Shown piece by piece: positions 635-51,267 of a stretch of 64,000 nt of DNA (positions are counted from its first letter, which is position 1; every line of letters starts with the position of its first letter). Position numbers and translations under genes: made by a program. Under the pieces are notes generated by a model. That model was not told the DNA's origin. It saw nothing but the letters and a program-made list of their open reading frames with translations, and ran no database searches. The DNA lies in the NCBI GenBank assembly GCA_003117195.1, contig BDSI01000179.1:124001-188000 (forward strand), given 5' to 3'. The stretch comes from Eudorina sp. 2006-703-Eu-15. Lineage: Eukaryota; Chlorophyta; Chlorophyceae; Chlamydomonadales; Volvocaceae.

Positions 635-739
635 ACGGGCTGGACACCCATCCACATCGCCTGCCAGGAAGGGCACACCGATCTCATCAAGATCCTGATC
701 GGGACGGGGGCCGTGGACAAGGACCTCCAAGTGCTGGGC
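635..739 (+). CDS. ANK exon 1 (35 codons)
   Basis: The acceptor is CACCCAG and the donor is GTGAGT. The repeat starts [14 protein letters not shown] and has two extra residues near the end compared with the usual 33. It is the most divergent full repeat, consistent with it belonging to an older part of the array that continues upstream of the window. Confidence 0.85.
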
Positions 740-18700: not shown

Positions 18701-21700
18701 ACATGCCGTATGCCGGCGCGTCTTAGGCCAGTCCTCGCCAACACCCTAGCTACCCTCGTCCGTGCCCCCAGAGGGACCCGATTCATCCCTCATCGCCAAG
18801 CGGGTTGATTACTTGGTTGTGTGCCCATACGTGGGCGTGTGCCCCTTGTTTTAATTGAGCAAAGGTCGTGTATATCATGTACGTACGCTCTGAACGCATG
18901 CAGCTCGGTTGCACACGTGTCGGTGTTCATCCTCATCCTTTCAATTCAAAGAATGTTAGTTTCAACTTAAACGAACACACACTCCTCTGTACTCTATCCG
19001 TCGCGTTTGTATCCGTGCAAGCGATTGACTTGCTTTGATTCGCGGTGGCGCTGCCTTGGTTGACTGACCATTCGTTATCATGAGGGACGGGTCGTTGACG
19101 GGCCAGGCACGAGGACGTATTGTACACATCTTGTCTGAGGCGCGCCAACGCAGCTCCGTTAGTAATGCGGCCAAGTGTGTGAGGAGTCCCCGCCCGCGTT
19201 GAGGCCGCCCTGCCGCCTTGCCGCCGCTTCTGACGACCACACCTGAATGTGTCCCTCCCCCTCGCTATATATCGATGGAAGTGCCGCGTCAACTCCCTTC
19301 CCACCCCCACCCCCACACACGGCCCCACCGCCCTCCACCCGCTCCTCTTTCATCCCGGTGTATGTATGTCGGCCTATCAATGCCCCCTCCATCCATCCTT
19401 CGTTGGTCGGGTGCGTGATGCCTGGATGATGGGGCGCAGTGACCGAGGGATGTGCGCCTGCTTGCATGCATGCATGCAGGACGGCCGGACACCGCTGTAC
19501 CTGGCGGCTAAGAACGGCCACCCGGACGTCGTCAAGCACTTGCTGTCCGTGGGGGCGGACAAGGACAAGGCCAGCAATGTCAGTACGTGGTTGGTTCCGG
19601 TGGTTGCGGCGGGGCCTATATGAGTGTACGTAGCACACCGCTGCTGGCTGGTCATGTGTGCCGGTCGCTGCACATCCATACCCACACACCCAACCCACAG
19701 CACCTCAATACCCCACATCCATCGCGGGCTGGGCTGGGGAGGGATAGATGGTAGGGCACCATACAGTGGGAAGAGGCTGAGGGTCCGGGGCGTATGTACG
19801 GCATCGGGGCAGAGGGGACTGACATGTAGGTTTATAAACGTAGAGGATGGACCGGTCGGGGGGGCTGTAAGGAGGGGGAGGCGTACGGGGAGGCCGTAAG
19901 GGGGGTTGGGAGGCGTACGGGGGGAGGCGTAGGGGGGGGGCGTACGGGGGGAGGCGTAGGGGGGGAGCGTACGGGGGGGGCGTAGGGGGGGGGAAGCGTA
20001 GGGGGGGGGACGTACGGGGGGGAGTGCACGGGGTGGGTGAGGGGGGGGGGGGCGTACGGGGGGGGTGTTGGGTGGGGGGGGCGTACCGGGGGGAGGTGCG
20101 TACGGCGCGGGGGAAGGGGGGGGGAGGCGTACGGGCGGGGTATAGGGGGGCGTGTAGGGGGGGGATAAGGCGTACGGGGGGAAGGCGTACGAGAGGGCGG
20201 CGTACCGGAGGGGGAACGGGGGAGGGCACGTGGTTGAGTACGGGAGGGGGGGTGTAGGGGGGGTCGGCGTACGGAGGGTAGGGGAGGCGTACGGGGGGGG
20301 GTTACGGGGGGGCGGGGCTGAGGAGGGTTTTTAGGGGGGGCGTTGGTGGGTGGGGTGAGGCAGGTTGCGGGTTGCGGGGGTGGGGTGGGGTAGGGGGGAA
20401 GGAAAGAGGGGTGGCAAGGCAGGGGGGTTATGCTCAGGGAGGATAGCTGGTGAAAACCGACGACAAAATAAAACGGGACAGTACGTGCCGGTTGTTGCAT
20501 CATTCAGCGGCATACCTGGACTCTCCTCTGCAGTACGAACCAGTGCCTGCACATTAGTATTCCCAACAGGGAAAAGCAAGCACGATGACATGCCGTATGC
20601 CGGCGCGTCTTAGGCCAGTCCTCGCCAACACCCTAGGGACGTCCTCGTCCGTGCCCCCAGAGGGACCCGATTCATCACTCGTCGCCAAGCGGGTTGATTG
20701 CTTGGTGGTGTGCCCATACGTGGGCGTGTGCCCCTTGTTTTAATTGAGCAAAGGTCGTGTATATCATGTACGTACGCTCTGAACGCATGCATGCAGCTCG
20801 GTTGCACACGTGTCGGTGTTCATCCTCATCCTTTCAATTCAAAGAATGTTAGTTTCAACTTCAACGAACACACGCTCGTCTGTACTTCATTCGTCGCGTT
20901 TGTATCCGTGCATGCGATTGACTTGCTTTGGTTCGCGGTGGCGCTGCCTTGGTTGACTGACCGTTCGTTATCACGAGGGACGGGTCGTTGACGGGCCAGG
21001 CACGAGGACGTGTTGTACACATCTTGTCTGAGGCGCGCCAACGAAGCCCCGTTAGTACTGCGGCCAAGTGTGTGAGGAGTCCCCGCCCGCGTTGAGGCCG
21101 CCCTGCCGCCTTGCCGCCGCTTCTGACGACCACACCTGAATGTGTCCCTCCCCCTCTCTACATATCGATCGATGTGCCGCGTCAACTCCCTTCCCACCCC
21201 CACCCCCACGCACGGCCCCACCTCCCTCCACCCGCTCCTCTTTCATCCCGGTGTATGTATGTCGGCCTATCAATGCCCCCTCCATCCATCCTTTGTTGGT
21301 TGGGTGCGTGATGCCTGGATGATGGGGGGCAGTGACCGAGGGATGTGCGCCTGCTTGCATGCATGCACGCAGGACGGCCGGACACCGCTGTACCTGGCGG
21401 CTTATAACGGCCACCTGGACGTCGTCAAGCACTTGCTGTCCGTGGGGGCGGACAAGGACAAGGCCAGCAATGTCAGTACGTGGTTGGTTCCGGTGGTGGC
21501 GGCGGGGCCTATATGAGTGTACGTAGTACACCTCTGCTTGCTGGTCATGTGTGCCGGTCGCTGCACATCCATACCCACACACCCAACCCACAGCACCTCG
21601 ATACCCCACATCCATCGCGGGCTGGGCTGGGGAGGGGTAGATGGTAGGGCACCATACAGCGGGAAGAGGCTGAGGGTCCGGGGCGTATGTACGGCATCGG

Positions 21701-24700
21701 GGCAGAGGGGACTGACATGTAGGTTTATAAACGTAGAGGATGGACCGGTCGGGGGCGCCGTAAGGAGGGGGAGGCGTACGGGGGGGCCGTAAGGGGGGTT
21801 GGGAGGCGTAAGGGGGGAGGCGTAGGGGGGGGGGAGCGTACGGGGGGGGTGAGGGGGGGGGAAGCGTACGGGGGGGAGGGTGAGGGGGGAGCGTACGGGT
21901 TGGCGTACGGGGGGCGTACGGGGGCGGCGTACGGGGGGGGCCGTACGGGGGGTGAGTACGGGGGGGAAGTACGGGGCGGCGGCGTACGGGAGGGATGGTA
22001 GGCGTCCGGGGGCCGTAGGGGGAAGGCGTACGAGGGGGGGGGGTAGGGGGGAAGTGTAGGGGGGCAAGTACCGGGGGGAGTGTACGGGGGGTGCAGGGGG
22101 GGGCGTACGGGGGGGTGTAGGGGGGGCGTGTAGGGGGGGGACAAGGTGTACGGGGGGAAGGCGTACGAGAGGGCGGCGTACCGGGGGGGAACAGGGGGGC
22201 ACATGGTTGAGTACGGGAGGGGGGGTTGTAGGGGGGTGGGGGCGGCGTACGGGGGGGAGGGGAGGCGTACGGGGGGGTTACGGGGGGGCAGGGCTCAGGA
22301 GGGTTTTTAGGGGGGGCGTTGGTGGGTGGGGTGAGGCAGGTTGCGGGGTTGCGGGGTGGGGTGGGGTAGGGGGAAGGAAAGAGGGGTGGCAAGGCAGGGG
22401 GGTTATGCTCAGGGAGGATAGCTGGTGAAAACCGACGACACAATAAAACGGGACAGTACGTGCCGGTTGTTGCATCATTCAGCGGCATACCTGGACTCTC
22501 CTCTGCAGTACGAACCAGTGCCTGCACATCAGTATTCCCAAGAGGGCGAAGCACGATGACATGCCGTATGCCGGCGCGTCTTAGGCCAGTCCTGGCCAAC
22601 GCCCTAGGGACGTCCTCGTCCGTGCCCCCAGAGGGACCCGATTCATCACTCGTCGCCAAGCGGGTTGATTGCTTGGTGGTGTGCCCATACGTGGGCGTGT
22701 GCCCCTTGTTTTAATTGAGCAAAGGTCGTGTATATCATGTACGTACGCTCTGAACGCATGCAGCTCGGTTGCACACGTGTCGGTGTTCATCCTCATCCTT
22801 TCAATTCAAAGAATGTTAGTTTCAACTTAAACGAACACACACTCCTCTGTACTCTATCCGTCGCGTTTGTATCCGTGCAAGCGATTGACTTGCTTTGGTT
22901 CGCGGTGGCGCTGCCTTGGTTGACTGACTGTTCGTTATCACGAGGGACGGGTCGTTGACGGGCCAGGCACGAGGACGTATTGTACACATCTTGTCTGAGG
23001 CGCGCCAACGAAGCTCCGTTAGTACTGCGGCCAAGTGTGTGAGGAGTCCCCGCCCGCGTTGAGGCCGCCCTGCCGCCTTGCCGCCGCTTCTGACGACCAC
23101 ACCTGAATGTGTCCCTCCCCCTCGCTATATATCGATGGAAGTGCCGCGTCAACTCCCCTCACCCACCCCCACCCCACACACGGCCCCACCTCCCTCCACC
23201 CGCTCCTCTTTCATCCCGGTGTATGTATGTCGGCCTATCAATGCCCCCTCCATCCATCCATCCTTGGTCGGGTGCGTGATGCCTGGATGATGGGGGGCAG
23301 TGAACGAGGGATGTGCGCCTGCTTGCATGCATGCACGCAGGACGGCTGCACACCGCTGCACATGGCGGCTTATAACGGCCACCTGGACGTCGTCAAGCAC
23401 TTGCTGTCCGTGGGGGCGGACAAGGACAAGGCCAGCAATGTCAGTACGTGGTTGGTTCCGGTGGTTGCGGCGGGGCCTATATGAGTGTACGTAGTACACC
23501 TCTGCTGGCTGGTCATGTGTGCCGGTCGCTGCACATCCATACCCACACACCCAACCCACAGCACCTCAATACCCCACATCCATCGCGGGCTGGGCTGGGG
23601 AGGGATAGATGGTAGGGCACCATACAGCGGGAAGAGGCTGAGGGTCCGGGGCGTATGTACGGCATCGGGGCAGAGGGGACTGACATGTAGGTTTATAAAC
23701 GTAGAGGATGGACCGGTCGGGGGGCCGTAAGGAGGGGGAGGCGTACGGGGGGGCCGTAAGGGGGGTTGGGAGGCGTAAGGGGGGGAGGCGTAGGGGGGGG
23801 GAGCGTACGGGGGGGGGTGAGGGGGGGAGCGTACGGGTTGGCGTACGGGGGGGCGTACGGGGGCGGCGTACGGGGGGGCCGTACGGGGGGTGAGTACGGG
23901 GGGGAAGTACGGGGCGGCGGCGTACGGGAGGGATGGTAGGCGTCCGGGGGCCGTAGGGGGGAAGGCGTACGAGGGGGGGGGTAGGGGGGGAAGTGTAGGG
24001 GGGCAAGTACCGGGGGGAGTGTACGGGGGGGTGCAGGGGGGGGCGTACGGGGGGGTGTAGGGGGGGCGTGTAGGGGGGGGACAAGGTGTACGGGGGGAAG
24101 GCGTACGAGAGGGCGGCGTACCGGGGGGGAACAGGGGGGCACATGGTTGAGTACGGGAGGGGGGGTTGTAGGGGGGTGGGGCGGCGTACGGGGGGGAGGG
24201 GAGGCGTACGGGGGGGGTTACGGGGGGGCAGGGTTCAGGAGGGTTTTTAGGGGGGGCGTTGGTGGGTGGGGTGAGGCAGGTTGCGGGGTTGCGGGGTGGG
24301 GTGGGGTAGGGGGGAAGGAAAGAGGGGTGGCAAGGCAGGGGGGTTATGCTCAGGGAGGATAGCTGGTGAAAACCGACGACACAATAAAACGGGACAGTAC
24401 GTGCCGGTTGTTGCATCATTCAGCGGCATACCTGGACTCTCCTCTGCAGTACGAACCAGTGCCTGCACATCAGTATTCCCAAGAGGGCGAAGCACGATGA
24501 CATGCCGTATGCCGGCGCGTCTTAGGCCAGTCCTGGCCAACGCCCTAGGGACGTCCTCGTCCGTGCCCCCAGAGGGACCCAATTCATCCCTCGTCGCCAA
24601 GCGGGTTGATTGCTTGGTGGTGTGCCCATACGTGGGCGTGTGCCCCTTGTTTTAATTGAGCAAAGGTCGTGTATATCATGTACGTACGCTCTGAACGCAT

Positions 24701-27700
24701 GCAGCTCGGTTGCACACGTGTCGGTGTTCATCCTCATCCTTTCAATTCAAAGAATGTTAGTTTCAACTTAAACGAACACACACTCCTCTGTACTCTATCC
24801 GTCGCGTTTGTATCCGTGCAAGCGATTGACTTGCTTTGGTTCGCGGTGGCGCTGCCTTGGTTGACTGACTGTTCGTTATCACGAGGGACGGGTCGTTGAC
24901 GGGCCAGGCACGAGGACGTATTGTACACATCTTGTCTGAGGCGCGCCAACGAAGCTCCGTTAGTACTGCGGCCAAGTGTGTGAGGAGTCCCCGCCCGCGT
25001 TGAGGCCGCCCTGCCGCCTTGCCGCCGCTAATGACGACCACACCTGAATGTGTCCCTCCCCCTCGCTATATATGGATCGATGTGCCACGTCAACTCCCCT
25101 CACCCACCCCCACCCCACACACGGCCCCACCTCCCTCCACCCGCTCCTCTTTCATCCCGGTGTATGTATGTCGGCCTATCAATGCCCCCTCCATCCATCC
25201 ATCCTTGGTCGGGTGCGTGATGCCTGGATGATGGGGGGCAGTGAACGAGGGATGTGCGCCTGCTTGCATGCATGCACGCAGGACGGCGGGACACCGCTGC
25301 ACATGGCGGCTTATAACGGCCACCTGGACGTCGTCAAGCACTTGCTGTCCGTGGGGGCGGACAAGGACAAGGCCAGCAATGTCAGTACGTGGTTGGTTCC
25401 GGTGGTGGCGGCGGGGCCTATATGAGTGTACGTAGCACACCGCTGCTGGCTGGTCATGTGTGCCGGTCGCTGCTCATCCATACCCACACACCCAACCCAC
25501 AGCACCTCAATACCCCACATCCATCGCGGGCTGGGCTGGGGAGGGATAGATGGTAGGGCAACATACAGCGGGAAGAGGCTGAGGGTCCGGGGCGTATGTA
25601 CGGCATCGGGGCAGAGGGGACTGGCATGTAGGTACATACGTAGAGGATGGACCGGTCGGGGGGGGCGTACGGGGGGAGGGGGCGTACGGGGGGAGGGGGC
25701 GTAGAGGGGGGGGGGCGTACCGGGGGGGGGGCGTACGGGGGTAAGCGTACTGGGGGGGCGTACGGGGGGGCCTTAAGGAGGGGGAGGCGTACGGGGGCCG
25801 TAAGGAGGGGGAGGCGTACGGAAGGGCCTTAAGGAGGGGAGGCGTACGGGGGGGCCGTAAGGAGGGGGAGGCGTACGGGGGGGCCGTAAGGAGGGGGAGG
25901 CGTACGGGGGGCCGTAAGGGGGGTTGGGAGGCGTACGGGGGGGCCGTAAGGAGGGGGAGGCGTACGGGGGGCCGTAAGGGGGGTGAGTACGGGGGGGGAA
26001 GTACGGGGCGGCGGCGTACGGGGGGGATGGTAGGCGTCCGGGGGCGTAGGGGGGGGCGTACAAGGGGGGGTAGGGGGGGAAGTGTAGGGGGGAAGTACGG
26101 GGGGGGGAGTGTACGGGGGGGATGCAGGGGAGGGGGGGCGTACCGGGGGGAGGTGCGTACGGGGCGGGGGAAGGGGGGGGGGAGGCGTACGGGCGGGGTG
26201 TAGGGGGGGCGTGTAGGGGGGGAGGATAAGGTGTACGGGGGGAAGGCGTACGAGAGGGCGGCGTACCGGGGGGAACGGGGGGCACATGGTTGAGTACGGG
26301 AGGGGGGGTGTAGGGGGGTGGGGGCGGCGTACGGGGGGGAGGGGAGGCGTAGGGGGGGGGGACGGGTGGGCGGGGCAGGTTGCGGGGTTGCGGGGGTGGG
26401 GTGGGGTAGGGGGGAAGGAAAAAGGGGTGGCAAGGCAGGGGGGTTATGCTCAGGGAGGATAGCTGGTGAAAACCGACGACAAAATAAAACGGGACAGTAC
26501 GTGCGGGTTGTTGCATCATTCAGCGGCATACCTGGACTCTCCTCTGCAGTACGAACCAGTGCCTGCACATTAGTATTCCCAAGAGGGCGAAGCAAACACG
26601 ATGACATGCCGTATGCCGGCGCGTCTTAGGCCAGTCCTGGCCAACGCCCTAGATAGCTACCCTCGTCCGTGCCCCCAGAGGGACCCGATTCATCACTCGT
26701 CGCCAAGCGGGTTGATTGCTTGGTGGTGTGCACATACGTGGGCGTGTGCCCCTTGTTTTAATTGAGCAAAGGTCGTGTATATCATGTACGTACGCTCTGA
26801 ACGCATGCAGCTCGGTTGCACACGTGTCGGTGTTCATCCTCATCCTTTCAATTCAAAGAATGTTAGTTTCAACTTCAACGAACACACGCTCGTCTGTGCT
26901 CCATCCGTCGCGTTTGTATCCGTGCAAGCGATTGACTTGCTTTGGTTCGCGGTGGCGCTGCCTTGGTTGACTGACCGTTCGTTATCACGAGGGACGGGTC
27001 GTTGACGGGCCAGGCACGAGTACGTGTTGTACACATCATGTCTGAGGCGCGCCAACGAAGCTCCGTTAGTACTGCGGCCAAGTGTGTGAGGAGTCCCCGC
27101 CCGCGTTGAGGCCGCCCTGCCGCCTTGCCGCCGCTTCTGACGACCACACCTGAATGTGTCCGTCCCCCTCGCTACATATCGATCGATGTGCCGCGTCAAC
27201 TCCCTTCCCACCCCCACCCCCACACACGGCCCCACCTCCCTCCACCCGCTCCTCTTTCATCCCGGTGTATGTATGTCGGCCTATCAATGCCCCCTCCATC
27301 CATCCTTTGTTGGTCGGGTGTGTGATGCCTGGATGATGGGGGGCAGTGACCGAGGGATGTGCGCCTGCTTGCATGCATGCACGCAGGACGGCTGGACACC
27401 GCTGAACGTGGCGGCTTGGAACGGCCAACTGGACGTCGTCAAGCACTTGCTGTCCGTAGGGGCGGACAAGGACAAGGGCGATAAGGTCAGTACGTGGTTG
27501 GTTCCGGTGGTGGCGGCGGGGCCTATATGAGTGTACGTAGTACACCGCTGCTGGCTGGTCATGTGTGCCGGTCGCTGCACATCCATACCCACACACCCAA
27601 CCCACAGCACCTCGATACCCCACATCCATCGCGGGCTGGGCTGTGGAGGGATAGATGGTAGGGCACCATACAGCGGGAAGAGGCTGAGGGTCCGGGGCGT

Positions 27701-30700
27701 ATGTACGGCATCGGGGGAGAGGGGACTGGCATGTAGGTACGTAAATACGTAGAGGATGGACCGGTCGGGGGGCCGTAAGGAGGGGGAGGCGTACGGGGGG
27801 GCCGTAAGGAGGGGGAGGCGTACGGGGGGCCGTAAGGGGGGTTGGGAGGCGTACGGGGGGGAGGCGTAGGGGGGGGGGAGCGTACGGGGGGGGAGGGTGA
27901 GGGGGGGAGCGTACGGGTTGGCGTACGGGGGGGCGTACGGGGGGCGGCGTACGGGGGGGCCGTACGGGGGGTGAGTACGGGGGGGAAGTACGGGGCGGCG
28001 GCGTACGGGAGGGATGGTAGGCGTCCGGGGGCCGTAGGGGGGGAGGCGTACGAGGGGGGGTAGGGGGGGAAGTGTAGGGGGGCAAGTACGGGGGGGAGTG
28101 TACGGGGGGGGTGCAGGGGGGGGCGTACGGGGGGGTGTAGGTGGGGCGTGTAGGGGGGGATAAGGTGTACGGGGGGAAGGCGTACGAGAGGGCGGCGTAC
28201 CGGGGGGGAACGGGGGAGGGCACATGGTTGAGTACGGGAGGGGGGGGTGTAGGGGGGGTCGGCGTACGGAGGGGAGGGGAGGCGTAGGGGGGGGGGTTAC
28301 GGGGGGGCGGGGCTGAGGAGGGTTTTTAGGGGGGGCGTTGGTGGGTGGGGTGAGGCAGGTTGCGGGGTTGCTGGGGTGGAGTGGGGTAGGGGGGAAGGAA
28401 AGAGGGGTGGCAAGGCAGGGGGGTTATGCTCAGGGAGGATAGCTGGTAAAAACCGACGACAAAATAGTACGGGACAGTACATGCCGGTTGTTGCATCATT
28501 CAGCGGCATACCTGGACTCTCCTCTGCAGTACGAACCAGTGCCTGCACATTAGTATTCCCAAGAGGGCGAAGCAAGCACGATGACATGCCGTATGCCGGC
28601 GCGTCTTAGGCCAGTCCTCGCCAACGCCCTAGATAGCTACCCTCGTCCGTGCCCCCAGAGGGACCCGATTCGCCAAGCGGGTTGATTGCTTGGTTGTGTG
28701 CCCATACGTGGGCGTGTGCCCCTTGCTTTAATTGAGCAAAGGTCATGTATATTATGTACGTACGCTCTGAACGCATGCAGGTTGCAAACGCGTCGGTGTT
28801 CATCCTCATCCTTTCAATTCAAAGAATGTTAGTTTCAACTTCAACGAACACACGCTCGTCTGTACTCTATCCGTCGCGTTTGTATCCGTGCAAGCGATTG
28901 ACTTGCTTTGGTTCGCGGTGGCGCTGCCTTGGTTGACTGACCGTTCGTTATCACGAGGGACGGGTCGTTGACGGGCCAGGCACGAGGACGTATTGTACAC
29001 ATCTTGTCTGAGGCGCGCCAACGAAGCCCCGTTAGTACTGCGGCCAAGTGTGTGAGGCGTCCCCGTCCGCGTTGAGGCCGCCCTGCCGCCGCTTCTGATG
29101 ACCACACCTGAATGTGTCCCTCCCCCTCTCTACATATCGATCGATGTGCCGCGTCAACTCCCTTCCCACCCACCCCCACCCCCACGCACGGCCCCACCTC
29201 CCTCCACCCGCTCCTCTTTCATCCCGGTGTATGTATGTCGGCCTATCAATGCCCCCTCCATCCATCCTTTGTTGGTTGGGTGCGTGATGCCTGGATGATG
29301 GGGGGCAGTGACCGAGGGATGTGCGCCTGCTTGCATGCATGCACGCAGGACGGCTGCACACCGCTGCACATGGCGGCTTGGAACGGCCAACTGGACGTCG
29401 TCAAGCACTTGCTGTCCGTGGGGGCGGACAAGGACAAGGGCGATAAGGTCAGTACGTGGTTGGTTCCGGTGGTGGCGGCGGGGCCTATATGAGTGTACGT
29501 AGTACACCGCTGCTGGCTGGTCATGTGTGCCGGTCGCTGCACATCCATACCCACACACCCAACCCACAGCACCTCGATACCCCACATCCATCGCGGGCTG
29601 GGCTGGGGAGGGATAGATGGTAGGGCACCATACAGCGGGAAGAGGCTGAGGGTCCGGGGCGTATGTACGGCATCGGGGCAGAGGGGACTGGCATGTAGGT
29701 ACATACGTAGAGGATGGACCGGTCGGGGGGGCCGTAAGGAGGGGGAGGCGTACGGGGGGGCCGTAAGGGGGTTGGGAGGCGTACGGGGGGAGGCGTAGGG
29801 GGGGGGAGCGTACGGGGGGAGGCGTAGGGGGGGAGCGTACGGGGGGGCGTAGGGGGGGGGGAGCGTACGGGGGGGCCGTAAGGGGGGTTGGGAGGCGTAC
29901 GGGGGGAGGCGTAGGGGGGGGGAGCGTACGGGGGGGGAGGGTGAGGGGGGGAGCGTACGGGTTGGTGTACGGGGGGGCGTACGGGGGGCGGCGTACGGGG
30001 GGGCCGTACGGGGGGTGAGTACGGGGGGGAAGTACGGGGCGGCGGCGTACGGGAGGGATGGTAGGCGTCCGGGGGCCGTAGGGGGGGAGGCGTACGAGGG
30101 GGGGGTAGGGGGGAAGTGTAGGGGGGCAAGTACGGGGGGGAGTGTACGGGGGGGTGCAGGGGGGGGGCGTACGGGGGGGTGTAGGGGGGGCGTGTAGGGG
30201 GGGGGATAAGGTGTACGGGGGGAAGGCGTACGAGAGGGCGGCGTACCGGGGGGAACAGGGGGGCACATGGTTGAGTACGGGAGGGGGGGGTGTAGGGGGG
30301 GTCGGCGTACGGAGGGGAGGGGAGGCGTACGGGGGGGTTACGGGGGGGCGGGGCTGAGGAGGGTTTTTAGGGGGGCGTTGGTGGGTGGGGTGAGGCAGGT
30401 TGCGGGGTTGCTGGGGTGGAGTGGGGTAGGGGGGAAGGGAAGACGGGTGGCAAGGCAGGGGGGTTATGCTCAAGGAGGATAGCTGGTGAAAACCGACGAC
30501 AAAATAGTACGGGACAGTACATGCCGGTTGTTGCATCATTCAGCGGCATACCTGGACTCTCCTACCTCTGCAGTACAAACCATTGCCTGCACATTAGTAT
30601 TCCCAAGAGGGCGAAGCAAACACGATGACATGCCGTATGCCGGCGCGTCTTAGGCCAGTCCTCGCCAACACCCTAGCTACCCTCGTCCGTGCCCCCAGAG

Positions 30701-33700
30701 GGACCCGATTCGCCAAGCGGGTTGATTGCTTGGTGGTGTGCCCATACGTGGGCGTGTGCCCCTTGTTTTAATTGAGCAAAGGTCGTGTATATCATGTACG
30801 TACGCTCTGAACGCATGCAGCTCGGTTGCACACGTGTCGGTGTTCATCCTCATCCTTTCAATTCAAAGAATGTTAGTTTCAACTTCAACGAACACACGCT
30901 CGTCTGTGCTCCATCCGTCGCGTTTGTATCCGTGCATGCGATTGACTTGCTTTGGTTCGCGGTGGCGCTGCCTTGGTTGACTGACCGTTCGTTATCACGA
31001 GGGACGGGTCGCTCGTTGACGGGCCAGGCACGAGGACGTGTTGTACACATCTTGTCTGAGGCGCGCCAACGAAGCCCCGTTAGTACTGCGGCCAAGTGTG
31101 TGAGGAGTCCCCGCCCGCGTTGAGGCCGCCCTGCCGCCTTGCCGCCGCTTCTGACGACCACACCTGAATGTGTCCCTCCCCCTCGCTACATATCGATCGA
31201 TGTGCCGCGTCAACTCCCTTCCCACCCCCACCCCCACACACGGCCCCACCTCCCTCCACCCGCTCCTCTTTCATCCCGGTGTATGTATGTCGGCCTATCA
31301 ATGCCCCCTCCATCCATCCTTTGTTGGTCGGGTGTGTGATGCCTGGATGATGGGGGGCAGTGACCGAGGGATGTGCGCCTGCTTGCATGCATGCACGCAG
31401 GACGGCTGGACACCGCTGCACACGGCGGCTTGGAACGGCCAACTGGACGTCGTCAAGCACTTGCTGTCCGTAGGGGCGGACAAGGACAAGGGCGATAAGG
31501 TCAGTACGTGGTTGGTTCCGGTGGTTGCGGCGGGGCCTATATGAGTGTACGTAGCACACCGCTGCTGGCTGGTCATGTGTGCCGGTCGCTGCACATCCAT
31601 ACCCACACACCCAACCCACAGCACCTCGATACCCCACATCCATCGCGGGCTGGGCTGGGGAGGGATAGATGGTAGGGCACCATACAGCGGGAAGAGGCTG
31701 AGGGTCCGGGGCGTATGTACGGCATCGGGGCAGAGGGGACTGGCATGTAGGTACATACGTAGAGGATGGACCGGTCGGGGGGGCCGTAAGGAGGGGGAGG
31801 CGTACGGGGGGGCCGTAAGGGGGGTTGGGAGGCGTACGGGGGGGAGGCGTTGGGGGGGGGAGCGTACGGGGGGAGGCGTAGGGGGGAGCGTACGGGGGGG
31901 GGCGTAAGGGGGGGGGAAGCGTAGGGGGGGGGCGTACGGGGGGGAGTGCACGGGGTGGGTGAGGGGGGGGCGTACGGGGGGGATGCAGGGGGGGGGGCGT
32001 CCCGGGGGGAGGTGCGTATGGGGCGGGGGAAGGGGGGGGGAGGCGTACGGGCGGGGTATAGGGGGGCGTGTAGGGGGGGGGATAAGGCGTACGGGGGAAA
32101 GGCGTACGAGAGGGCGGCGTACCGGGGGGGAACGGGGAGGGCACGTGGTTGAGTACGGGAGGGGGGGTGTAGGGGGGTGGGGTCGGCGTACGGGGGGGAG
32201 GGGAGGCGTAGGGGGGGGGGGACGGGGGGCGGGGCTCAGGAGGGTTTTTAGGGGGGCGTTGGTGGGTGGGGTGAGGCAGGTTGCGGGGTTGCGGGGGTGG
32301 GGTGGGGTAGGGGGAAGGAAAGAGGGGTGGCAAGGCAGGGGGGTTATGCTCAGGGAGGATAGCTGGTGATAACCGACGACAAAATAAAACGGGACAGTAC
32401 GTGCCGGTTGTTGCATCATTCAGCGGCATACCTGGACTCTCCTCTGCAGTACGAACCAGTGCCTGCACATTAGTATTCCCAAGAGGGCGAAGCAAGATGA
32501 CATGTCGTATGCCGGCGCGTCTTAGGCCAGTCCTCGCCCACGCCCTAGCTACCCTCGTCCGTGCCCCCAGAGGGACCCAATTCATCCCTCGTCGCCAAGC
32601 GGGTTGATTGCTTGGTGGTGTGCCCATACGTGGGCGTGTGCCCCTTGCTTTAATTGAGCAAAGGTCGTGTATACTATGTACGTACGCTCTGAACGCATGC
32701 AGGTTGCACACGTGTCGGTGTTCATCCTCATCCCTTCAATTCAAAGAATGTTGGTTTCAACTTAAACGAACACACGCTCGTCTGTGCTCCATCCGTCGCG
32801 TTTGTATCCGTGCAAGCGATTGACTTGCTTTGGTTCGCGGTGGCGCTGCCTTTGTAGACCGACCGTTCGTTATCACGAGGGACGGGTCGTTGACGGGCCA
32901 GGCACGAGTACGTGTTGTACACATCTCGTCTGAGGCGCGCCAACGAAGCTCCGTTAGTAATGCGGCCAAGTGTGTGAGGAGTCCCCGCCCGCGTTGAGGC
33001 CGCCCTGCCGCCTTGCCGCCGCTTCTGACGACCACACCTGAATGTGTCCCTCCCCCTCGCTACATATCGATCGATTTGCCGCGTCAACTCCCCTCACCCA
33101 CCCCCACCCCCACACACGGCCCCACCTCCCTCCACCCGCTCCTCTTTCATCCCGGTGTATGTATGTCGGCCTATCAATGCCCCCTCCATCCATCCTTGGT
33201 CGGGTGCGTGATGCCTGGATGATGGGGGGCAGTGACCGAGGGATGTGCGCCTGCTTGCATGCATGCACGCAGGACGGCTGGACACCGCTGTACGTGGCGG
33301 CTGAGAACGGCCACCTGGACGTCGTCAAGCACTTGCTGTCCGTGGGGGCGGACAAGGACAAGGCCAACAATGTCAGTACGTGGTTGGTTCCGGTGGTGGC
33401 GGCGGGGCCTATATGAGTGTACGTAGTACACCGCCGCTGGCTGGTCATGTGTGCCGGTCGCTGCACATCCATACCCACACACCCAACCCACAGCACCTCG
33501 ATACCCCACATCCATCGCGGGCTGGGCTGGGGAGGGATAGATGGTAGGGCACCATACAGCGGGAAGAGGCTGAGGGTCCGGGGCGTATGTACGGCATCGG
33601 GGCAGAGGGACTGGCATGTAGGTACATACGTAGAGGATGGACCGGTCGGGGAGGCAAAGGGGGGGCCATAAGGAGGGGGATAAGGCGTACGGGGGGACGT

Positions 33701-35436
33701 ACGGGGGGGACGTACAGGGGGAGGGGGCGTACGGGGGGGGGTGAGTACGGGGGGCGTATGGGGGGTCGAGTACGGGGGGGCGTAAGGGGGGGGAAGGCGT
33801 ACGGGGGGGAGGCGTAGGGGGGGGAGCGTACGGGGGGGAGAGTACGGGGGGGCGTACGGGGGGAAGGGGAGGCGTAGGGGGGCCGTACGGGGTGGGAAGG
33901 CGTACGGGGGGGGGGGGGGGCGTACGGGGGGGCGGGGCTGAGGAGGGTTTTAAGGGGGGGCGTTGGTGGGTGGGGTGGGGCAGGTTGCGGGTTGCGGGGG
34001 TGGAGGGAAGTGTGTGGGGATGCTGGGGTTGTTGGGTGGGGTGGGGTGGGGGGAAGGGAAGAGGGGTGGCAAGGCAGGGGGGTTATGCTCAAGGAGGATA
34101 GCTGGTGAAAACTGACGACAAAATAGTACGGACCAGTACGTGCCGGTTGTTGCATCATTCAGCGGCATACCTGGACTCTCCTCTGCAGTACGAACCAGTG
34201 CCTGCACATTAGTTTTCCCAAGAGGGCGAAGCAAGCACGATGACATGCCGTATGCCGGCGCGTCTTAGGCCAGTCCTCGCCAACGCCCTAGATAGCTACC
34301 CTCGTCCGTGCCCCCAGAGAGACCCGATTCGTCCCTCGTGGCCAAGCGGGTTGATTGCTTGGTTGTGTGCCTATACGTGGGCGTGTGCCCCTTGGTTTAA
34401 TTGAGCAAAGGTCGTGTATATTATGTACGTACGCTCTGAACGCATGCAGGCTGCACACGTGTCGGTGTTCATCCTCATCCTTTCAATTCAAAGAATGTTG
34501 GTTTCAACTTAAACGAACACACGCTCGTCTGTACTCCATCCGTCGCGTTTGTATCCGTGCAAGCGATTGACTTGCTTTGGTTCGCGGTGGCGCTGCCTTG
34601 GTTGACTGACCGTTCGTTATCACGAGGGACGGGTCGTTGACGGGCCAGGCACGAGGACGTATTGTACACATCTTGTCTGAGGCGCGCCAACGAAGCTCCG
34701 TTAGTAATGCGGCCAAGTGTGTGAGGAGTCCCCGCCCGCGTTGAGGCCGCCCTGCCGCCTTGCCGCCGCTTCTGACGACCACACCTGAATGTGTCCCTCA
34801 CCCTCGCTACATATCGATCGATTTGCCGCGTCAACACCCTTCCCACCGACACCCCCACACACGGCCCCACCTCCCTCCACCCGCTCCTCTTTCATCCCGG
34901 TGTATGTATGTCGGCCTATCAATGCCCCCTCCATCCATCCTTCGTTGGTCGGGTGCGTGATGCCTGGATGATGGGGGGCAGTGACCGAGGGATGTGTGCC
35001 TGCTTGCATGCATGCACGCAGGACGGCTGGACACCGCTGTACGTGGCGGCTCAGAACGGCCAACTGGACGTCGTCAAGCACTTGCTGTCCGTGGGGGCGG
35101 ACAAGGACAAGGCCAGCAAGGTCAGTACGTACGTACTGCTACAGGGTGCTCGTACATCGTGATCGATTGTGCATACCGCTCATACATCATTGCCAGCAGT
35201 GGGCCATGTCAACATGGGCAGTCGTCTGCCTGCGGGGCCGCTGTTCCACCTACCCCGCCACCGACTCCGTTTACTCCGTTGCTCTTGACGACCAACAAAT
35301 CTTACATGCTCACACACACCCTGCGTTACCGAGAGACCTTATGTGTGTGCGTATGTGACCTCAATGTGCAATCAAACAGGATGGCAAGAAGCCCAGAGAC
35401 GTGGCGACGCGCGATGACATCTGCGCCTTGCTGTAG
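635..35436 (+). CDS. Giant ankyrin-repeat protein gene, 3' portion (26 exons)
   Basis: Twenty-six exons can be joined in one frame with all introns in phase 0. Each internal exon is exactly one ankyrin repeat (consensus G-TPLH-AA--G---VV--LL--GAD), so any exon can be skipped, gained or lost without a frameshift. The 5' end is outside the window: the first visible exon already starts inside the repeat array and no start codon is seen. Ankyrin arrays are protein-binding scaffolds; no signal peptide, membrane segment or catalytic domain is visible in this part, so the partner and cellular location are unknown. The last exon supplies about 18 residues and a stop. Exons 1-16 mostly alternate between class A ([18 protein letters not shown]) and class B (MHFA..GN.ELLKALI..G.DKDMPN). 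Exons 17-25 are all class A, in a tandem cassette array. Introns run from under 400 bp to about 5.8 kb and carry most of the repeats described here. Exon calls are by eye; no transcript was available. Confidence 0.85.
1078..1176 (+). CDS. ANK exon 2, class A
   Basis: The 33 codons begin [20 protein letters not shown]. The acceptor is TACGCAG and the donor GTCAGT. With exon 1 before it this makes two A-like repeats in a row; I found no class B exon between them. Confidence 0.9.
1502..2161. mobile_element. 660-bp insertion with 17-bp target duplications
   Basis: The segment is bounded by perfect direct repeats ATCGTTACATATCTGCC at 1485-1501 and 2162-2178. The right end is a TATATATG/TGTATG simple-sequence tract, like the 3' tail of a short non-autonomous retroelement, and just inside it lies an antisense tRNA-like sequence. 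Long direct repeats of this kind are typical of target-primed reverse transcription. It lies in the intron between ANK exons 2 and 3. No coding region is convincing. Confidence 0.65.
2013..2123 (-). tRNA. tRNA-like sequence, interrupted or pseudogene
   Basis: Read on the minus strand, a 7-bp acceptor stem forms between ACCGGCG (2123-2117) and CGTCGGT (2019-2013). A D-arm GCTC..GAGC with a perfect A box occupies 2114-2099, and a perfect T-arm ATGGG-TTCGAAT-CCCAT occupies 2036-2020. The anticodon region is about 40 nt too long and contains a second B box (GGTTCGACTCT). Positions equivalent to 27-29 and 41-43 still pair, but 30/40 and 31/39 do not. It may be an intron-bearing tRNA, a tRNA with another tRNA fragment inserted, or the tRNA-derived part of the surrounding 660-bp element. 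No anticodon can be assigned safely. Confidence 0.5.
2323..2421 (+). CDS. ANK exon 3, class B
   Basis: The first class B repeat starts [13 protein letters not shown] and ends TDTPNA. The acceptor is AACTGCAG and the donor GTGAGT. The MHFA motif in place of PLHxA is the class B hallmark. Confidence 0.88.
2735..2833 (+). CDS. ANK exon 4, class A
   Basis: The repeat starts [20 protein letters not shown]. The acceptor is TATACAG and the donor GTCAGC. The intron from exon 3 is only about 310 bp. Confidence 0.9.
3046..3551. mobile_element. hAT-type MITE, copy 1
   Basis: The 506-bp element has terminal inverted repeats CAGTGTTGCTATCTT (left) and AAGACAGCAACACTG (right, one mismatch) and perfect 8-bp target duplications ATCTGGAT at 3038-3045 and 3552-3559. 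An 8-bp duplication and CAGTG termini are hallmarks of the hAT superfamily. It has no transposase. A close relative sits at 41812-42317. Confidence 0.88.
3676..3825. repeat. Two short tandem arrays
   Basis: An 11-bp unit GTACCTCTGCC is repeated about six times, followed by a 10-bp unit CACTGACGTT repeated about five times. Both lie in the intron before ANK exon 5. Confidence 0.85.
3953..4054 (+). CDS. ANK exon 5, class B (34 codons)
   Basis: The repeat starts [20 protein letters not shown] and has one extra codon in the QQQ stretch of the second helix. The acceptor is TACGTAG and the donor GTAAGT. It is an unusually divergent class B repeat. Confidence 0.85.
4129..4215. repeat. Tandem duplication of about 45 bp
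   Basis: The block GTGCACCCAACCGGGAACGA and its downstream bases ending GTCTAGTTAG occur twice in succession. It is a simple intronic duplication. Confidence 0.85.
4479..4577 (+). CDS. ANK exon 6, class A
   Basis: The repeat starts [20 protein letters not shown] and ends KNKNGK. The acceptor is GCACGCAG and the donor GTTAGT. Confidence 0.9.
4994..5092 (+). CDS. ANK exon 7, class B
   Basis: The repeat starts [20 protein letters not shown] and ends KDMPNK. The acceptor is AACGAAG and the donor GTGAGT. Confidence 0.9.
5764..5862 (+). CDS. ANK exon 8, class A
   Basis: The repeat starts [20 protein letters not shown] and ends KLKVDK. The acceptor is GTTACAG and the donor GTCAGT. The following intron is about 5.8 kb, the longest placed between two exons of this gene, and is filled by repeat families described below. 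Confidence 0.9.
6243..8210. repeat. Dispersed repeat X, copy A (with minisatellite expansion)
   Basis: The sequence matches 9150-10489 from its first bases (ACAAGTAGGGG, CTTCCTTGAAGCCGG) to its last (GGGGCCCCGC.CAAAAA). The ends carry opposed GC-rich blocks containing GGGCGGGGCCCC preceded by AAAAA, so the repeat is bounded by short imperfect inverted repeats. Only short reading frames are present. It lies in the intron between ANK exons 8 and 9. Confidence 0.75.
7141..8148. repeat. GGACACAC octamer minisatellite, ~1 kb
   Basis: About 125 copies of the 8-bp unit GGACACAC run nearly without interruption. Rare defects are a C-run near 7335, one GCACCCACCAC variant and occasional missing or extra bases. 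Copy B of the host repeat has only two or three units at the same place, so the array arose by local expansion. Confidence 0.97.
8211..9149. other. Non-coding segment between repeat X copies
   Basis: The first ~80 bases hold C- and G-run hairpins. A strong stem-loop follows: TATCATGGCAGCTTG at 8487-8501 pairs perfectly with 8541-8555, and GTGGTG/CACCAC pair inside it. The rest is ordinary sequence with no supported exon. Short reading frames here lack ankyrin similarity. Confidence 0.6.
9150..10489. repeat. Dispersed repeat X, copy B
   Basis: This is the second copy of repeat X, close to copy A apart from a 356-bp insertion and the near absence of the GGACACAC array. Comparing the two copies gives the empty target site of the insertion. 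Confidence 0.75.
9706..10061. mobile_element. 356-bp insertion with 5-bp duplication
   Basis: Copy A of repeat X reads CAATACATATTGTTGAATTG. In copy B this is interrupted after CATAT, with a second CATAT at 10062-10066. The insert starts GGTTCTGGCACGACTG and ends CCCACACAAT. Near its left end an A-box-like TGGCACGACTG and a perfect B box GGTTCGACCCC (9755-9765) have tRNA-like spacing, suggesting a SINE. A 5-bp duplication would also fit a solo LTR, but the TG..CA termini expected of an LTR are missing. Confidence 0.6.
10763..11162. repeat. 62-bp direct repeats flanking 276 bp, GC-rich
   Basis: The block running from CGGGGGCCTAGATCGCGGCC to CCCCTTGCTCAGG occurs at 10763-10824 and 11101-11162 with one mismatch. 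Each copy contains CCTGAGCA and TGCTCAGG, which can pair as a hairpin. Open frames between them are GC artefacts with no recognised domain. Confidence 0.75.
11179..11395. repeat. Dispersed repeat Y, copy 2
   Basis: Diverged copy of the first ~215 bases of the window. It contains the 21-bp odd palindrome ATATAAAATT-G-AATTTTATAT at 11228-11248 and two copies of the palindromic core CTTGCTCGAGCA(A/C)GG. Confidence 0.7.
11445..11590. repeat. AAT-type microsatellite
   Basis: Imperfect (AAT)n with interspersed CAT and GATATT units fills the sequence just before ANK exon 9. Confidence 0.9.
11646..11744 (+). CDS. ANK exon 9, class B
   Basis: The repeat starts [20 protein letters not shown] and ends KDMPNT. 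The acceptor is ATTGAAG and the donor GTGAGT. It closely resembles exon 7. Confidence 0.9.
12161..12259 (+). CDS. ANK exon 10, class A
   Basis: The repeat starts [20 protein letters not shown] and ends KHKVDK. The acceptor is GACCACAG and the donor GTATGT, unlike the GTCAGT of most class A exons. Confidence 0.9.
12545..12643 (+). CDS. ANK exon 11, class B
   Basis: The repeat starts [20 protein letters not shown] and ends KDMPNQ. The acceptor is TGATTAG and the donor GTGAGT. Confidence 0.9.
12953..13592 (-). pseudogene. Gag-like reading frame with frameshifts
   Basis: Read on the minus strand, a hydrophilic protein of about 210 residues can be followed only by changing frame twice. It starts [10 protein letters not shown] and shifts into a Pro/Gly/Lys-rich stretch ([17 protein letters not shown]). 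It shifts again near 13385-13360 into a charged helical segment ([20 protein letters not shown]) and then runs open to a TGA at 12953. A basic N-terminus, low-complexity middle and coiled-coil-like centre fit a retrotransposon Gag, but I recognise no capsid or zinc-knuckle motif. It lies antisense in the intron between ANK exons 11 and 12. Confidence 0.45.
14090..14188 (+). CDS. ANK exon 12, class A
   Basis: The repeat starts [20 protein letters not shown] and ends RHKVDK. The acceptor is CTATGCAG and the donor GTCAGT. LG replaces the usual DG at the start, shared with exon 14. Confidence 0.9.
14620..14718 (+). CDS. ANK exon 13, class B
   Basis: The repeat starts [20 protein letters not shown] and ends KDMPNQ. 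The acceptor is TTTGCAAG and the donor GTGAGT. It is the closest relative of exon 11, supporting duplication of an A-B exon pair. Confidence 0.9.
15721..15819 (+). CDS. ANK exon 14, class A
   Basis: The repeat starts [20 protein letters not shown] and ends KQKKDK. The acceptor is GCTTGCAG and the donor GTCAGT. T replaces the second helix-1 Ala and R replaces the Gly of GAD, so it is slightly degenerate. Confidence 0.88.
15960..16060. repeat. Nested palindromes (foldback)
   Basis: A perfect 24-bp palindrome with half-site CACTAATTTTGC occupies 16005-16028. Around it CCTCCGAG (left) faces CTCGGAGG (right), with further GAGCGAGG/CCTCGCTC-like pairing. It resembles a miniature foldback element in the intron after ANK exon 14. 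Confidence 0.75.
16085..16275. repeat. Two tandem ~105-bp repeats
   Basis: GCGGATAT.T.TGCAGTT.TGTTCAC and the following bases to CGCCCATCCGCATGACTTCAA occur twice, about 113 bp apart, with moderate divergence. It is non-coding. Confidence 0.8.
16342..16443 (+). CDS. ANK exon 15, class B (34 codons)
   Basis: The repeat starts [20 protein letters not shown] and ends KDIPNG. One extra codon falls in the VVEQE segment, as in exon 5. The acceptor is CATACAAG and the donor GTGAGT. Confidence 0.88.
16809..16907 (+). CDS. ANK exon 16, class A
   Basis: The repeat starts [20 protein letters not shown] and ends KNKKGQ. The acceptor is CACGCAG and the donor GTTCGT, which is weak. It is the last exon before the cassette array. 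Confidence 0.88.
16908..18135. other. Intron between ANK exon 16 and the cassette array
   Basis: No ankyrin exon, RNA gene or recognised element is visible here. A reading frame at 17301-17591 has no features I recognise. A class B exon would be expected by the alternation rule but is absent. Confidence 0.5.
19480..19578 (+). CDS. ANK exon 17, cassette 1
   Basis: Variable codons read R3, Y7, L8, K11, H14, P15 and A-S-N at 31-33. The acceptor is ATGCATGCAG and the donor GTCAGT. It is the only cassette with Pro in place of Leu at codon 15, which could destabilise the helix turn. Confidence 0.92.
21373..21471 (+). CDS. ANK exon 18, cassette 2
   Basis: Variable codons read R3, Y7, L8, Y11, H14, L15, A-S-N 31-33. 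It differs from cassette 1 at codons 11 and 15 only. The acceptor is GCACGCAG and the donor GTCAGT. Confidence 0.92.
23341..23439 (+). CDS. ANK exon 19, cassette 3
   Basis: Variable codons read C3, H7, M8, Y11, H14, L15, A-S-N 31-33. A Cys at position 3 is shared only with cassette 6. Confidence 0.92.
25282..25380 (+). CDS. ANK exon 20, cassette 4
   Basis: Variable codons read G3, H7, M8, Y11, H14, L15, A-S-N 31-33. The cassette is otherwise almost a copy of cassette 3; in the exon only codon 3 differs (TGC versus GGG). Confidence 0.92.
27387..27485 (+). CDS. ANK exon 21, cassette 5
   Basis: Variable codons read W3, N7, V8, W11, Q14, L15, G-D-K 31-33. It carries the array's only synonymous variant (GTA at codon 24), shared with cassette 7. 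Confidence 0.92.
29349..29447 (+). CDS. ANK exon 22, cassette 6
   Basis: Variable codons read C3, H7, M8, W11, Q14, L15, G-D-K 31-33. The 5' half matches cassette 3 and the 3' half matches cassettes 5 and 7, as expected if exon segments are shuffled by gene conversion. Confidence 0.92.
31401..31499 (+). CDS. ANK exon 23, cassette 7
   Basis: Variable codons read W3, H7, T8, W11, Q14, L15, G-D-K 31-33. The Thr at position 8 (ACG) is unique in the array. GTA at codon 24 is shared with cassette 5. Confidence 0.92.
33273..33371 (+). CDS. ANK exon 24, cassette 8
   Basis: Variable codons read W3, Y7, V8, E11, H14, L15, A-N-N 31-33. E11 is unique in the array. Confidence 0.92.
35022..35120 (+). CDS. 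ANK exon 25, cassette 9
   Basis: Variable codons read W3, Y7, V8, Q11, Q14, L15, A-S-K 31-33. Sequence similarity to the other cassettes ends just after the donor (GTCAGTACGT). Confidence 0.92.
35380..35436 (+). CDS. ANK gene terminal exon with stop
   Basis: After acceptor ATCAAACAG the frame reads [18 protein letters not shown] and stops at TAG. It is the first half of an ankyrin-like cap (D-G-K-P-x-D-V-A), a common way for ankyrin arrays to end. The phase matches all upstream exons. Confidence 0.85.
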   Translation, partial: DGKKPRDVATRDDICALL

Positions 35437-41427: not shown

Positions 41428-41811
41428 CGAGGGCCGGAGAGCGCGGGCTCCGCGCGTGTGTGTATGTGTGTATGTGTGTGTGTGTGGGGGGGGGGATTCG
41501 ACTGTGTGATGCATGTTGAGTGGATGAGGAGGCGGCGGTTCCAAGAGGGATAAGGTCGCGGATGTCTACTTTTGGGGATGGACAAGTATGTGGCGCGCCT
41601 CATCAAAAGGCCATACATGCAGGCCTCACAGCCCACCTCCCCTGCCCGAGTCGCGATGTGGCCATAATAACAACAGTAACGAACACAACTCAGACCCGGG
41701 CGTCCCTCGGCGGTGATTGTGGTCCCCAGAATGCGGCCTGCTCCCTGAGGCTGCTGCTGCTGTCGGTGCTCCGTGTAGGGAGGTCATGCACACACGCACA
41801 TGATGGTGAGG

Positions 41812-50201: not shown

Positions 50202-51225
50202 ACTGCCGGTCCCGTCGACGCGGCGTTCATCTCCTCATCCTTACAGGAGCCCGCCGTCGCACCGGGTAAGGCTGCTTCCGGTGGTGGAGGTGGCGGAGGT
50301 GGCGGAGGCGCCCTCACCATCATCATCTTGGCCAGCTCCAGGGCGGCCTCCTTGTTGTGGGGCTCCACCGCCAGCACCGCCTGAAGGGGGCCACAACCAG
50401 GAACATACAAATACACACACCAGCAGCAGGAGCGACAGGTAGGGCGGTCATCACATGTATGTCATGACAAGGATGGCAAGATCCGGTTCCGGAGCAGCGA
50501 ACCCCCCGACCCGGTCCGCCAGGGTGAGAGCAGGGACGAGACGGGGCGTTCGTTCGGAGCGTACAGCGCTGGGCCGGCGGCGGGGGCGGGGGCGGGGAGT
50601 CGCGGGAGGTTCGTTCCAAGAGGGGACCCGAGGAGGGCAGATGGTGGAGGTTGGGGGCTCAGGCCAGCTCAGCACGAGCTAGCGTTGCGTCATCCGCGAA
50701 CGTCGGCACGCGGCAGGGCCCCCCAACCCAGCCACACCCGCCGAGCGCGTAACCCCCTTGCGTGCGGCTGTTGACCCGACCTGGTACGTACTGCCCACCC
50801 TCCAGCCTCCACCCCCCTGACCGCCGACCTACATGCGCTGTCTGTCCCTCTTGGCCCTCCGCCGCCGCACCTGACGACGTCCCTCTCTCGCCCCCCCCCT
50901 GGGCGGCTGTCGTGAGGCAGGCAGGGCTGTCACCTGACGACGTCCCTCTCTCGCCCCCCCCCCCTGGGCGGCTGTCGTGAGGCAGGTAGGGCTGTCACCT
51001 GACGACGTCCCTCTCTCGCCCCCCCCCCTCTGGGCGGCTGTCGTGAGGCAGGCAGGGCTGTCACCTGACGACGTCCCTCTCTCGCCCCCCCCCCCCCCCC
51101 CTGGGCGGCTGTCGTGAGGCAGGTAGGGTTGTCACCTGACGACGTCCCTCTCTCGCCCCCCCCCCCCCCCCTGGGCGGCTGTCGTGAGGCAGGTAGGGCT
51201 GTCACCTGACGACGTCCCTCTCTCG

Positions 51226-51267
<42 letters not shown>

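Follow-up and report, generated by a model that had tools for sequence, protein, structure and literature searches.

The DNA analysed here, called the window, is a stretch of 64,000 nt from the volvocine alga Eudorina sp. 2006-703-Eu-15 (contig C179:124001-188000; the assembly searched comprised 181.2 Mb in 3033 contigs). The window holds all but the first recovered exon of a predicted gene that joins an N-terminal HET domain to a long series of ankyrin repeats, the last nine of which are encoded by near-identical 99-nt exons, termed cassettes below (E1 to E9). In this array and in three sister arrays, the amino-acid-changing sites of the cassettes vary more than the introns around them. The likely product of the gene is an intracellular receptor for recognition, with a binding face that exon exchange renews.

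Organization of the predicted HET-ankyrin gene

The gene model has 27 exons, each with a length divisible by three and all in phase 0. Joined, they give 3,855 nt with 1,284 open codons and no internal stop, the ankyrin exons having been picked as stop-free beforehand. The 27 exons are predicted to be spliced into one mRNA and to form one solenoid of ~26 repeats. The HET domain (Pfam PF06985) was matched in the first recovered exon at 34.0 bits, in the spliced N-terminal part at 31.9 bits and in the genome search at 36.6 bits (cut-off 22.5). Fifteen ankyrin exons of 99 or 102 nt, of two alternating types (A and B), precede the cassettes, which make up the 3′ portion of the gene (Table 1). From 1078 to 35120, 22 of the 24 ankyrin exons measure 99 nt and two measure 102 nt, all in phase 0. 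Type A exons carry the signature …LDAVKYLLSVGAD… and type B exons …MHFA…ELLKALI…DKDMPN…. When the spliced 969-residue N-terminal part was scanned, HET and ankyrin families alone exceeded the Pfam cut-offs; ROC-COR, NB-ARC, LRR and TPR gave no match above cut-off in it.

All nine cassettes are bordered by an AG acceptor and a GT donor, and the phase-0 frame is open in each. The nine exons are mutually distinct, as are the introns between them (~1.6-2.0 kb). The ankyrin family PF00023 matched the array in nine stretches (283 bits, above cut-off). A match of Ribosomal_L30 to the array (24.0 bits, cut-off 23) was taken as chance. Mean amino-acid identity was 0.83 among the C179 cassettes, 0.886 between adjacent C179 cassettes and 0.866 among those of contig C98, measured otherwise than the >85%/100-residue criterion of PMC4986451. 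A preliminary description of the window had claimed nine near-identical 99-nt ankyrin exons, frame-neutral and with a shared backbone and variable contact residues. The positions, splice borders and open frame were all borne out, as was this general design. The pattern had been seen rightly, but it is larger than the nine exons described: they are the last part of a far longer gene model, and their array is one of several in the genome.

Two features lie inside introns of the gene. A tRNA-like sequence of 112 nt (Rfam tRNA, 48.6 bits) occupies window positions 2012-2123 on the opposite strand (-), and an 8-bp tandem array, CGGACACA, in ~126 copies takes up positions 7141-8149 of the longest intron (5863-11645).

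Sister arrays and HET loci in the genome

An ankyrin exon of 99 nt was counted as a cassette if its frame is open and it has the common splice-site flanks. Four arrays were fetched, namely that of the window, one on C98 and two on contig C170, called plus and minus after their strands. They hold 9 (C179), 14 (C98), 10 (C170 plus) and 15 (C170 minus) intact cassettes, 48 in total, of which 37 are distinct at both the DNA and the protein level. Of 401 candidate places in the genome 150 were scored, and at least 116 of these, spread over ten contigs, are cassette-like with an E of no more than 1e-6, diverged ankyrin exons included. An equivalent of the C-terminal capping exon, with one or two residues changed, terminates the C98 array and both C170 arrays.

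Of seven HET candidates in the genome, six are matches. Four of the six have ankyrin stretches after them on their own strand (C179, C170:14645, C145:168955 and C134:166789); for the other two, downstream ankyrin was not resolved in the short loci examined. The HET gene on C170 is similar in order to the window gene (HET, a TPIHIAAQEG repeat, then A, B, A, B); 9 kb separate it from the downstream cassettes of the plus array (C170:24295-54596, +, loci L018-L021), whose upstream HET exon is open. Where the window gene has its second recovered exon (635..739), the HET genes on C170 and C145 have a similar ankyrin stretch.

A second, more diverged run of ankyrin exons is found on the opposite strand upstream of the window gene (C179:84683-102442, -, loci L012 and L009).

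Variable codons and the binding face

Variation in the nine cassettes is confined to 16 of 99 columns, 15 of them amino-acid-changing and one silent. These fall in codons 3, 7, 8, 11, 14, 15, 24, 31, 32 and 33, with codon 24 alone silent; counts and codon list agree exactly with those reported earlier. Some codon differences are multi-base, such as AAG, TAT and TGG at codon 11.

The TPL and GAD motifs set the register between codons and ankyrin-module positions: codon 3 corresponds to position 5, codon 11 to 13, codon 33 to 2, codon 8 to 10, codon 31 to 33 and codon 1 to 3. The earlier assignment of codons 3, 11 and 33 to positions 5, 13 and 2 agrees with this register. Codon 1 is constant in the nine window cassettes and variable in the sister arrays. 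Positions 2, 3, 5, 13, 14 and 33 were used as a set which we take to be that of the literature on designed ankyrin repeat proteins (DARPins). Compared with random sets of six positions, amino-acid diversity is concentrated on it (P 0.0116 for C179, 0.0016-0.0079 for the other three arrays). With positions 2, 3, 5, 10, 13 and 14 the concentration has P 0.0026 in C179 and 4e-5 to 0.007 elsewhere. The latter are the positions randomised in a designed-ankyrin library, with side chains on one exposed face (PMC3308923). Position 10 is described as facing the binding surface, and positions 26 and 33 as not directly in it (PMC3308923). Cassettes and DARPins are thus alike in a fixed backbone and in variation at module positions 2, 3, 5, 10, 13 and 33. 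They differ in that DARPins are man-made and in that cassettes also vary at positions 9, 16 and 1 (codons 7, 14 and 32) and hardly at 14 (codon 12), which is nearly invariant.

Amino-acid changes compared with intron variation

The preliminary description held the flanks within ~60 bp to be far less variable than the exons. Close to the exons this is true of the upstream side (4 of 60 columns vary) and of the downstream side without E9 (1 of 36 ungapped columns out of 60). With E9 the downstream count rises to 16 of 36, because E9 precedes a different, terminal intron, and further out diversity is about 3-fold lower than in the exons. With wider flanks (400 columns upstream of nine units and 300 downstream of E1-E8), 51 of 624 intron sites vary compared with 15 of ~76 nonsynonymous sites (Fisher P 0.0026); the 5′ flank alone gives 38 of 380 against the same 15 of ~76 (P 0.017). 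Pairwise diversity in C179 is 0.092 at nonsynonymous sites, 0.042 at synonymous sites and 0.029 in introns, a nonsynonymous to intron ratio of 3.15 (jackknife 2.8-3.5). Since one of 23 synonymous sites segregates among the nine cassettes, no different from intron sites (synonymous diversity 1.4x intron), the exon as such is no mutation hot spot in C179. Pairwise ratios recount old changes, and the claim made here is therefore an excess over intron, not a codon-model result.

The comparison was extended to the four arrays with those units whose flanks both belong to the main intron class (C179 8/9, C98 12/14, C170 minus 8/15, C170 plus 7/10). Segregating nonsynonymous sites exceeded intron sites in each of them: 14/76 vs 32/486 in C179 (odds ratio 3.2, P 0.0014), 18/76 vs 40/484 in C98 (odds ratio 3.4, P 2e-4), 13/74 vs 4/488 in C170 minus (odds ratio 25.8, P 2e-9) and 13/75 vs 30/436 in C170 plus (odds ratio 2.8, P 0.005). 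At the six preset designed-ankyrin positions, 7, 9, 7 and 6 of ~15 sites segregate in the four arrays, with odds ratios of 9 to 106. The preliminary description had also raised the case of introns diverging as much as the exons or more; this was tested and found in none of the four arrays. The ratio pN/pS is 2.2 for the nine cassettes, 0.38 for type A exons (8/8) and 0.22 for type B exons (4/7; one more-diverged exon and the two 102-nt exons left out), pS being near-saturated in both types. Type A and B exons of the window gene look constrained.

Exchange of exons between units

Within the nine exons, ten informative pairs of sites are incompatible, showing all four combinations. E6 is a mosaic: it resembles E3 at codons 3, 7 and 8, and E5 and E7 at the later variable codons save codon 24. 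Between E2 and E7 there are 13 differences in the 99 nt of exon, 4 in 296 nt upstream and 6 in 245 nt downstream. One sister array holds a stronger case. The C170 unit at 133124 has 15 mismatches in 99 nt of exon to the five units at 138294-141680, with 2 mismatches in 689-692 nt upstream and none in 400 nt downstream. So many exon mismatches between near-identical flanks make point mutation alone very unlikely and point to exchange of the whole exon. Exon distances do not track 5′-flank distances (correlation -0.07; several flanks are unrelated and poorly aligned). No whole exon is identical between arrays among the 48 cassettes of the four arrays; when the exons are divided into 5′ parts of 45 nt and 3′ parts of 54 nt, two or more arrays share 1 of the 36 distinct 5′ parts and 5 of the 15 distinct 3′ parts. 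This pattern of variation is read as crossing-over or conversion at the scale of one exon or less.

Hypermutation targeted to the exons, template-driven or deaminase-like, would also raise nonsynonymous sites far above intron variation and yield the multi-base differences at codon 11. Silent changes in the pooled set are dense at the six contact codons as well, with 4 on 2.9 sites compared with 6 on 20.6 elsewhere (two of the four are ambiguous). We regard it, nonetheless, as highly improbable: the silent sites of the nine exons are not raised, and copying fits better with exon parts common to several arrays and with a whole exon that differs between near-identical flanks.

The introns between cassettes contain G-rich minisatellites of the GGGGGGGCGTAC type, which are diverged (window 18148-33912). 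They might promote recombination of the exons.

On C170, five successive units ~846 bp apart (138294-141778, -, loci L025/L026) show no mismatch over the ~1.2 kb compared, which reflects either very recent amplification or an effect of the assembly. Chimeric joining of repeats during assembly could in principle have made the mosaic units too, and some small contigs match each other in the spacing and scores of their cassettes (C734/C547, C1098/C547). For the window this explanation is very unlikely, as its nine exons are all distinct, have distinct introns and an intact frame, and end in a normal capping exon.

A candidate recognition receptor

The preferred reading, which we consider rather probable, is that of a HET-ankyrin intracellular recognition receptor. 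Units and arrays would exchange single exons and so renew its binding face, with selection favouring new contact residues. This reading builds on the exon order, the phase-0 exons, the HET match, the common capping exon, the excess over intron in four arrays and the one whole-exon difference in a sister array. Ectopic recombination or gene conversion between cassettes would supply the variants, and selection would retain changes on the concave binding face. By analogy with fungal HET-repeat receptors, a ligand on the ankyrin solenoid would release the HET effector and lead to cell death or defence. The target may be either a pathogen or an incompatible partner. A role in recognition, including self/non-self recognition, had been proposed in the preliminary description. 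Both the HET domain that the gene model places upstream of the cassettes and the HET and ankyrin proteins of other volvocine algae lend independent support to such a role, which remains an inference from one genome.

Several results weigh against this reading. The first concerns selection. Minimum-change counts gave 20 nonsynonymous to 2 synonymous changes in the nine cassettes (P 0.079) and 43 to 10 in the 37 distinct exons (omega 1.34, P 0.26), neither of them significant. The six codons chosen a priori gave an omega of 1.04 in the pooled set (22 nonsynonymous and 4 synonymous changes, two of the latter, in codon 3, also readable as separate changes from TGG). In the dN/dS test proposed in the preliminary description, nonsynonymous change exceeds the intron reference, and the codon-only count falls short of significance. 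A single dN/dS test was dropped as proof of selection for this reason, and the intron comparison carries the argument. The four arrays of that comparison are themselves related and share variants, so that their tests are not independent. Several units have unrelated flanks and were omitted from it; the within-array mean divergence is 0.26 for the 5′ flanks of C170 plus and 0.31 for the 3′ flanks of C170 minus. Furthermore, 32 ordinary ankyrin exons show the same positional bias (P 0.0003; Spearman 0.45), as any ankyrin would. Position alone proves nothing, since ordinary ankyrin exons vary there too; contact position was accordingly rejected as proof of recognition, and the case rests on the intron yardstick.

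An ordinary expanding ankyrin array, in which tandem duplication and relaxed constraint let exposed positions drift with no recognition role, would account for this shared bias, for an omega close to 1 when events are counted in the pooled set and for decay of the C170 plus array. Relaxed constraint cannot surpass the neutral rate, yet nonsynonymous change exceeds intron change in four of four arrays. The frame is kept in 23 of 23 cassettes of C179 and C98, and the window gene shows constraint in its type A and B exons. Drift of this kind is therefore unlikely.

Cassette integrity also differs between arrays. Broken cassettes number 0 of 9 in C179 and 0 of 14 in C98, and 2 of 17 in C170 minus are broken or partial; in C170 plus 8 of 18 carry indels (P 7e-4 vs the rest), a further point against the receptor. 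From 0/9 vs 8/18 it follows that C179 keeps its frame and that C170 plus is decaying or tolerates skipped exons. Skipping would be expected of an alternative-splicing module, Dscam-like, in which cassettes are chosen or skipped per transcript, and broken C170 plus cassettes would then be harmless. Any subset of the window cassettes keeps the frame because all nine are in phase 0 and 99 nt long, and LRR exon arrays of brown algae are reported to be alternatively spliced (PMC11378527). The common capping exon suits plain joining of all repeats. Such a module, which is compatible with the recognition receptor, is rather unlikely here.

The remaining adverse points concern the HET part. Pfam gave neither a NACHT nor an NB-ARC switch domain in the 969 N-terminal residues, a scan that began at the first recovered exon. 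In the gene model, both the 5′ end and the start codon are provisional. A Foldseek search with a model of a HET-region homologue gave no clear relative among solved structures, also after weak candidates were re-examined. No HET exon was seen for the C98 array, whose contig ends too early to include one, or for the C170 minus array.

A bolder form of the recognition receptor would be a repertoire of HET receptors in which entire exons of 99 bp, copied from donors across the genome, replace those of the ankyrin face by exon-sized and possibly programmed conversion. This would amount to an immune or mate-compatibility system outside animals and fungi, and is proposed as a doubtful possibility.

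Similar systems in other organisms

To our knowledge, few NLRs are known from green algae. The recognition of pathogens or incompatible partners is largely open in this group, and the locus joins an effector, a sensor, a neutral yardstick (the introns) and a donor pool. In a cultivable lineage, the ligand and the origin of variants can be tested directly. If the receptor reading is true, one system of the green lineage would combine the shuffling of repeat exons with a HET effector, features so far known separately from brown algae, ciliates and fungi.

In fungi, HET domains are the cell-death effectors of incompatibility proteins, and NLRs with nearly identical ANK, TPR or WD repeats show positive selection on the concave face (PMC4986451). 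HET homologues have been noted in green algae (PMC4986451). Fungal repeat variation is thought to come from repeat exchange (PMC12222747). The fungal receptors (HET-D/E/R; Podospora PNP/NACHT/ANK) and the Eudorina gene are alike in near-identical repeats and, as far as the preferred reading holds, in selection on the concave ankyrin face and in repeat exchange (PMC4986451, PMC12222747), and the N-terminal effector domain of fungal NLRs has its counterpart here in HET. They differ in that no NACHT or NB-ARC was found here, ankyrin and not WD repeats are joined to HET, each repeat has its own exon between introns of ~1.6-2.0 kb, and the host is a green alga. The predicted receptor is not filed as an NLR because the scanned part has no nucleotide-binding domain.

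The window gene shares with repeat-exon arrays in general its uniform repeat-sized exons and single intron phase. The LRR-ROCO and NB-ARC-TPR genes of brown algae likewise have one repeat per uniform frame-neutral exon, with shuffling of LRR exons and diversifying selection, and were proposed to be immune receptors; they differ in combining LRR exons (72 bp, phase 2) or TPR exons with ROC-COR or NB-ARC, compared with 99 bp, phase 0, ankyrin and HET here (PMC11378527). Tetrahymena LRR exon arrays comprise tens of thousands of exons of equal length and one intron phase, with ectopic recombination; they differ in repeat (LRR), length (90 bp) and phase (2), and a HET domain is not mentioned in the excerpted text (PMC6564038).

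Among volvocine algae, HET relatives occur in Chlamydomonas incerta, Tetrabaena socialis, Pleodorina starrii and Volvox africanus, with 41-56% identity over the HET region in the named records. A CP26 antenna exon of the assembly agrees with PDB chains 9is4_S and 6kac_S (the latter from Chlamydomonas reinhardtii) at 109 of 113 positions, which, like the HET relatives, fits a chlamydomonad or volvocine green alga. Ankyrin and HET are joined in one protein in C. incerta, and in Tetrabaena ankyrin precedes the HET-homologous region. None of nine volvocine HET/ankyrin sequences has a near-identical cassette array, their ankyrin repeats being divergent. Proteins of other species were searched for close relatives of the cassettes. 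Of 518 at E 1e-40, the 120 listed had identities of 29-60% and none was accepted as such; the search scored only the 7990 candidates sharing most words, and relatives were judged by identity alone. No published description of this array was found in the literature searches made, those on HET or heterokaryon incompatibility and green algae giving mainly fungal and lichen papers. A 29-member ankyrin family is reported from the alga Asterochloris (PMC6652019).

Coordinates and neighbouring features

Table 1 Recovered exons of the predicted HET-ankyrin gene (window positions unless a contig is named)
Feature	Position	Strand	Remarks
HET exon, first recovered	C179:121798-123108 (starts 2203 and ends 893 bases ahead of window position 1)		one open exon, runs into first partial ankyrin repeat
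Second recovered coding exon, 105 nt	635..739	+	first complete ankyrin repeat after HET exon; from spliced model and frame
Ankyrin exon type A	1078..1176	+	99 nt, phase 0
Ankyrin exon type B	2323..2421	+	99 nt, phase 0
Ankyrin exon type A	2735..2833	+	
Ankyrin exon type B	3953..4054	+	102 nt
Ankyrin exon type A	4479..4577	+	
Ankyrin exon type B	4994..5092	+	
Ankyrin exon type A	5764..5862	+	
Ankyrin exon type B	11646..11744	+	
Ankyrin exon type A	12161..12259	+	
Ankyrin exon type B	12545..12643	+	
Ankyrin exon type A	14090..14188	+	
Ankyrin exon type B	14620..14718	+	
Ankyrin exon type A	15721..15819	+	
Ankyrin exon type B	16342..16443	+	102 nt
Ankyrin exon type A	16809..16907	+	last before cassettes
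Cassette exon E1	19480..19578	+	99 nt
Cassette exon E2	21373..21471	+	99 nt
Cassette exon E3	23341..23439	+	99 nt
Cassette exon E4	25282..25380	+	99 nt
Cassette exon E5	27387..27485	+	99 nt
Cassette exon E6	29349..29447	+	99 nt, mosaic
Cassette exon E7	31401..31499	+	99 nt
Cassette exon E8	33273..33371	+	99 nt
Cassette exon E9	35022..35120	+	99 nt; then different, terminal intron
C-terminal capping exon DGKKPRDVATRDDICALL + stop	35380..35436	+	57 nt, follows E9

Downstream of the HET-ankyrin gene, a gene for ribosome recycling factor lies at ~39700-41430 (+; Pfam RRF, 54 bits, in two exon pieces). Beyond it, two blocks of a 65-bp C-rich minisatellite are each followed by a 16-bp array, GCCGCCATACACACGT (44258-47573 and 48595-49205; 50868-55539 and 56559-57088), and form a duplicated satellite pair.

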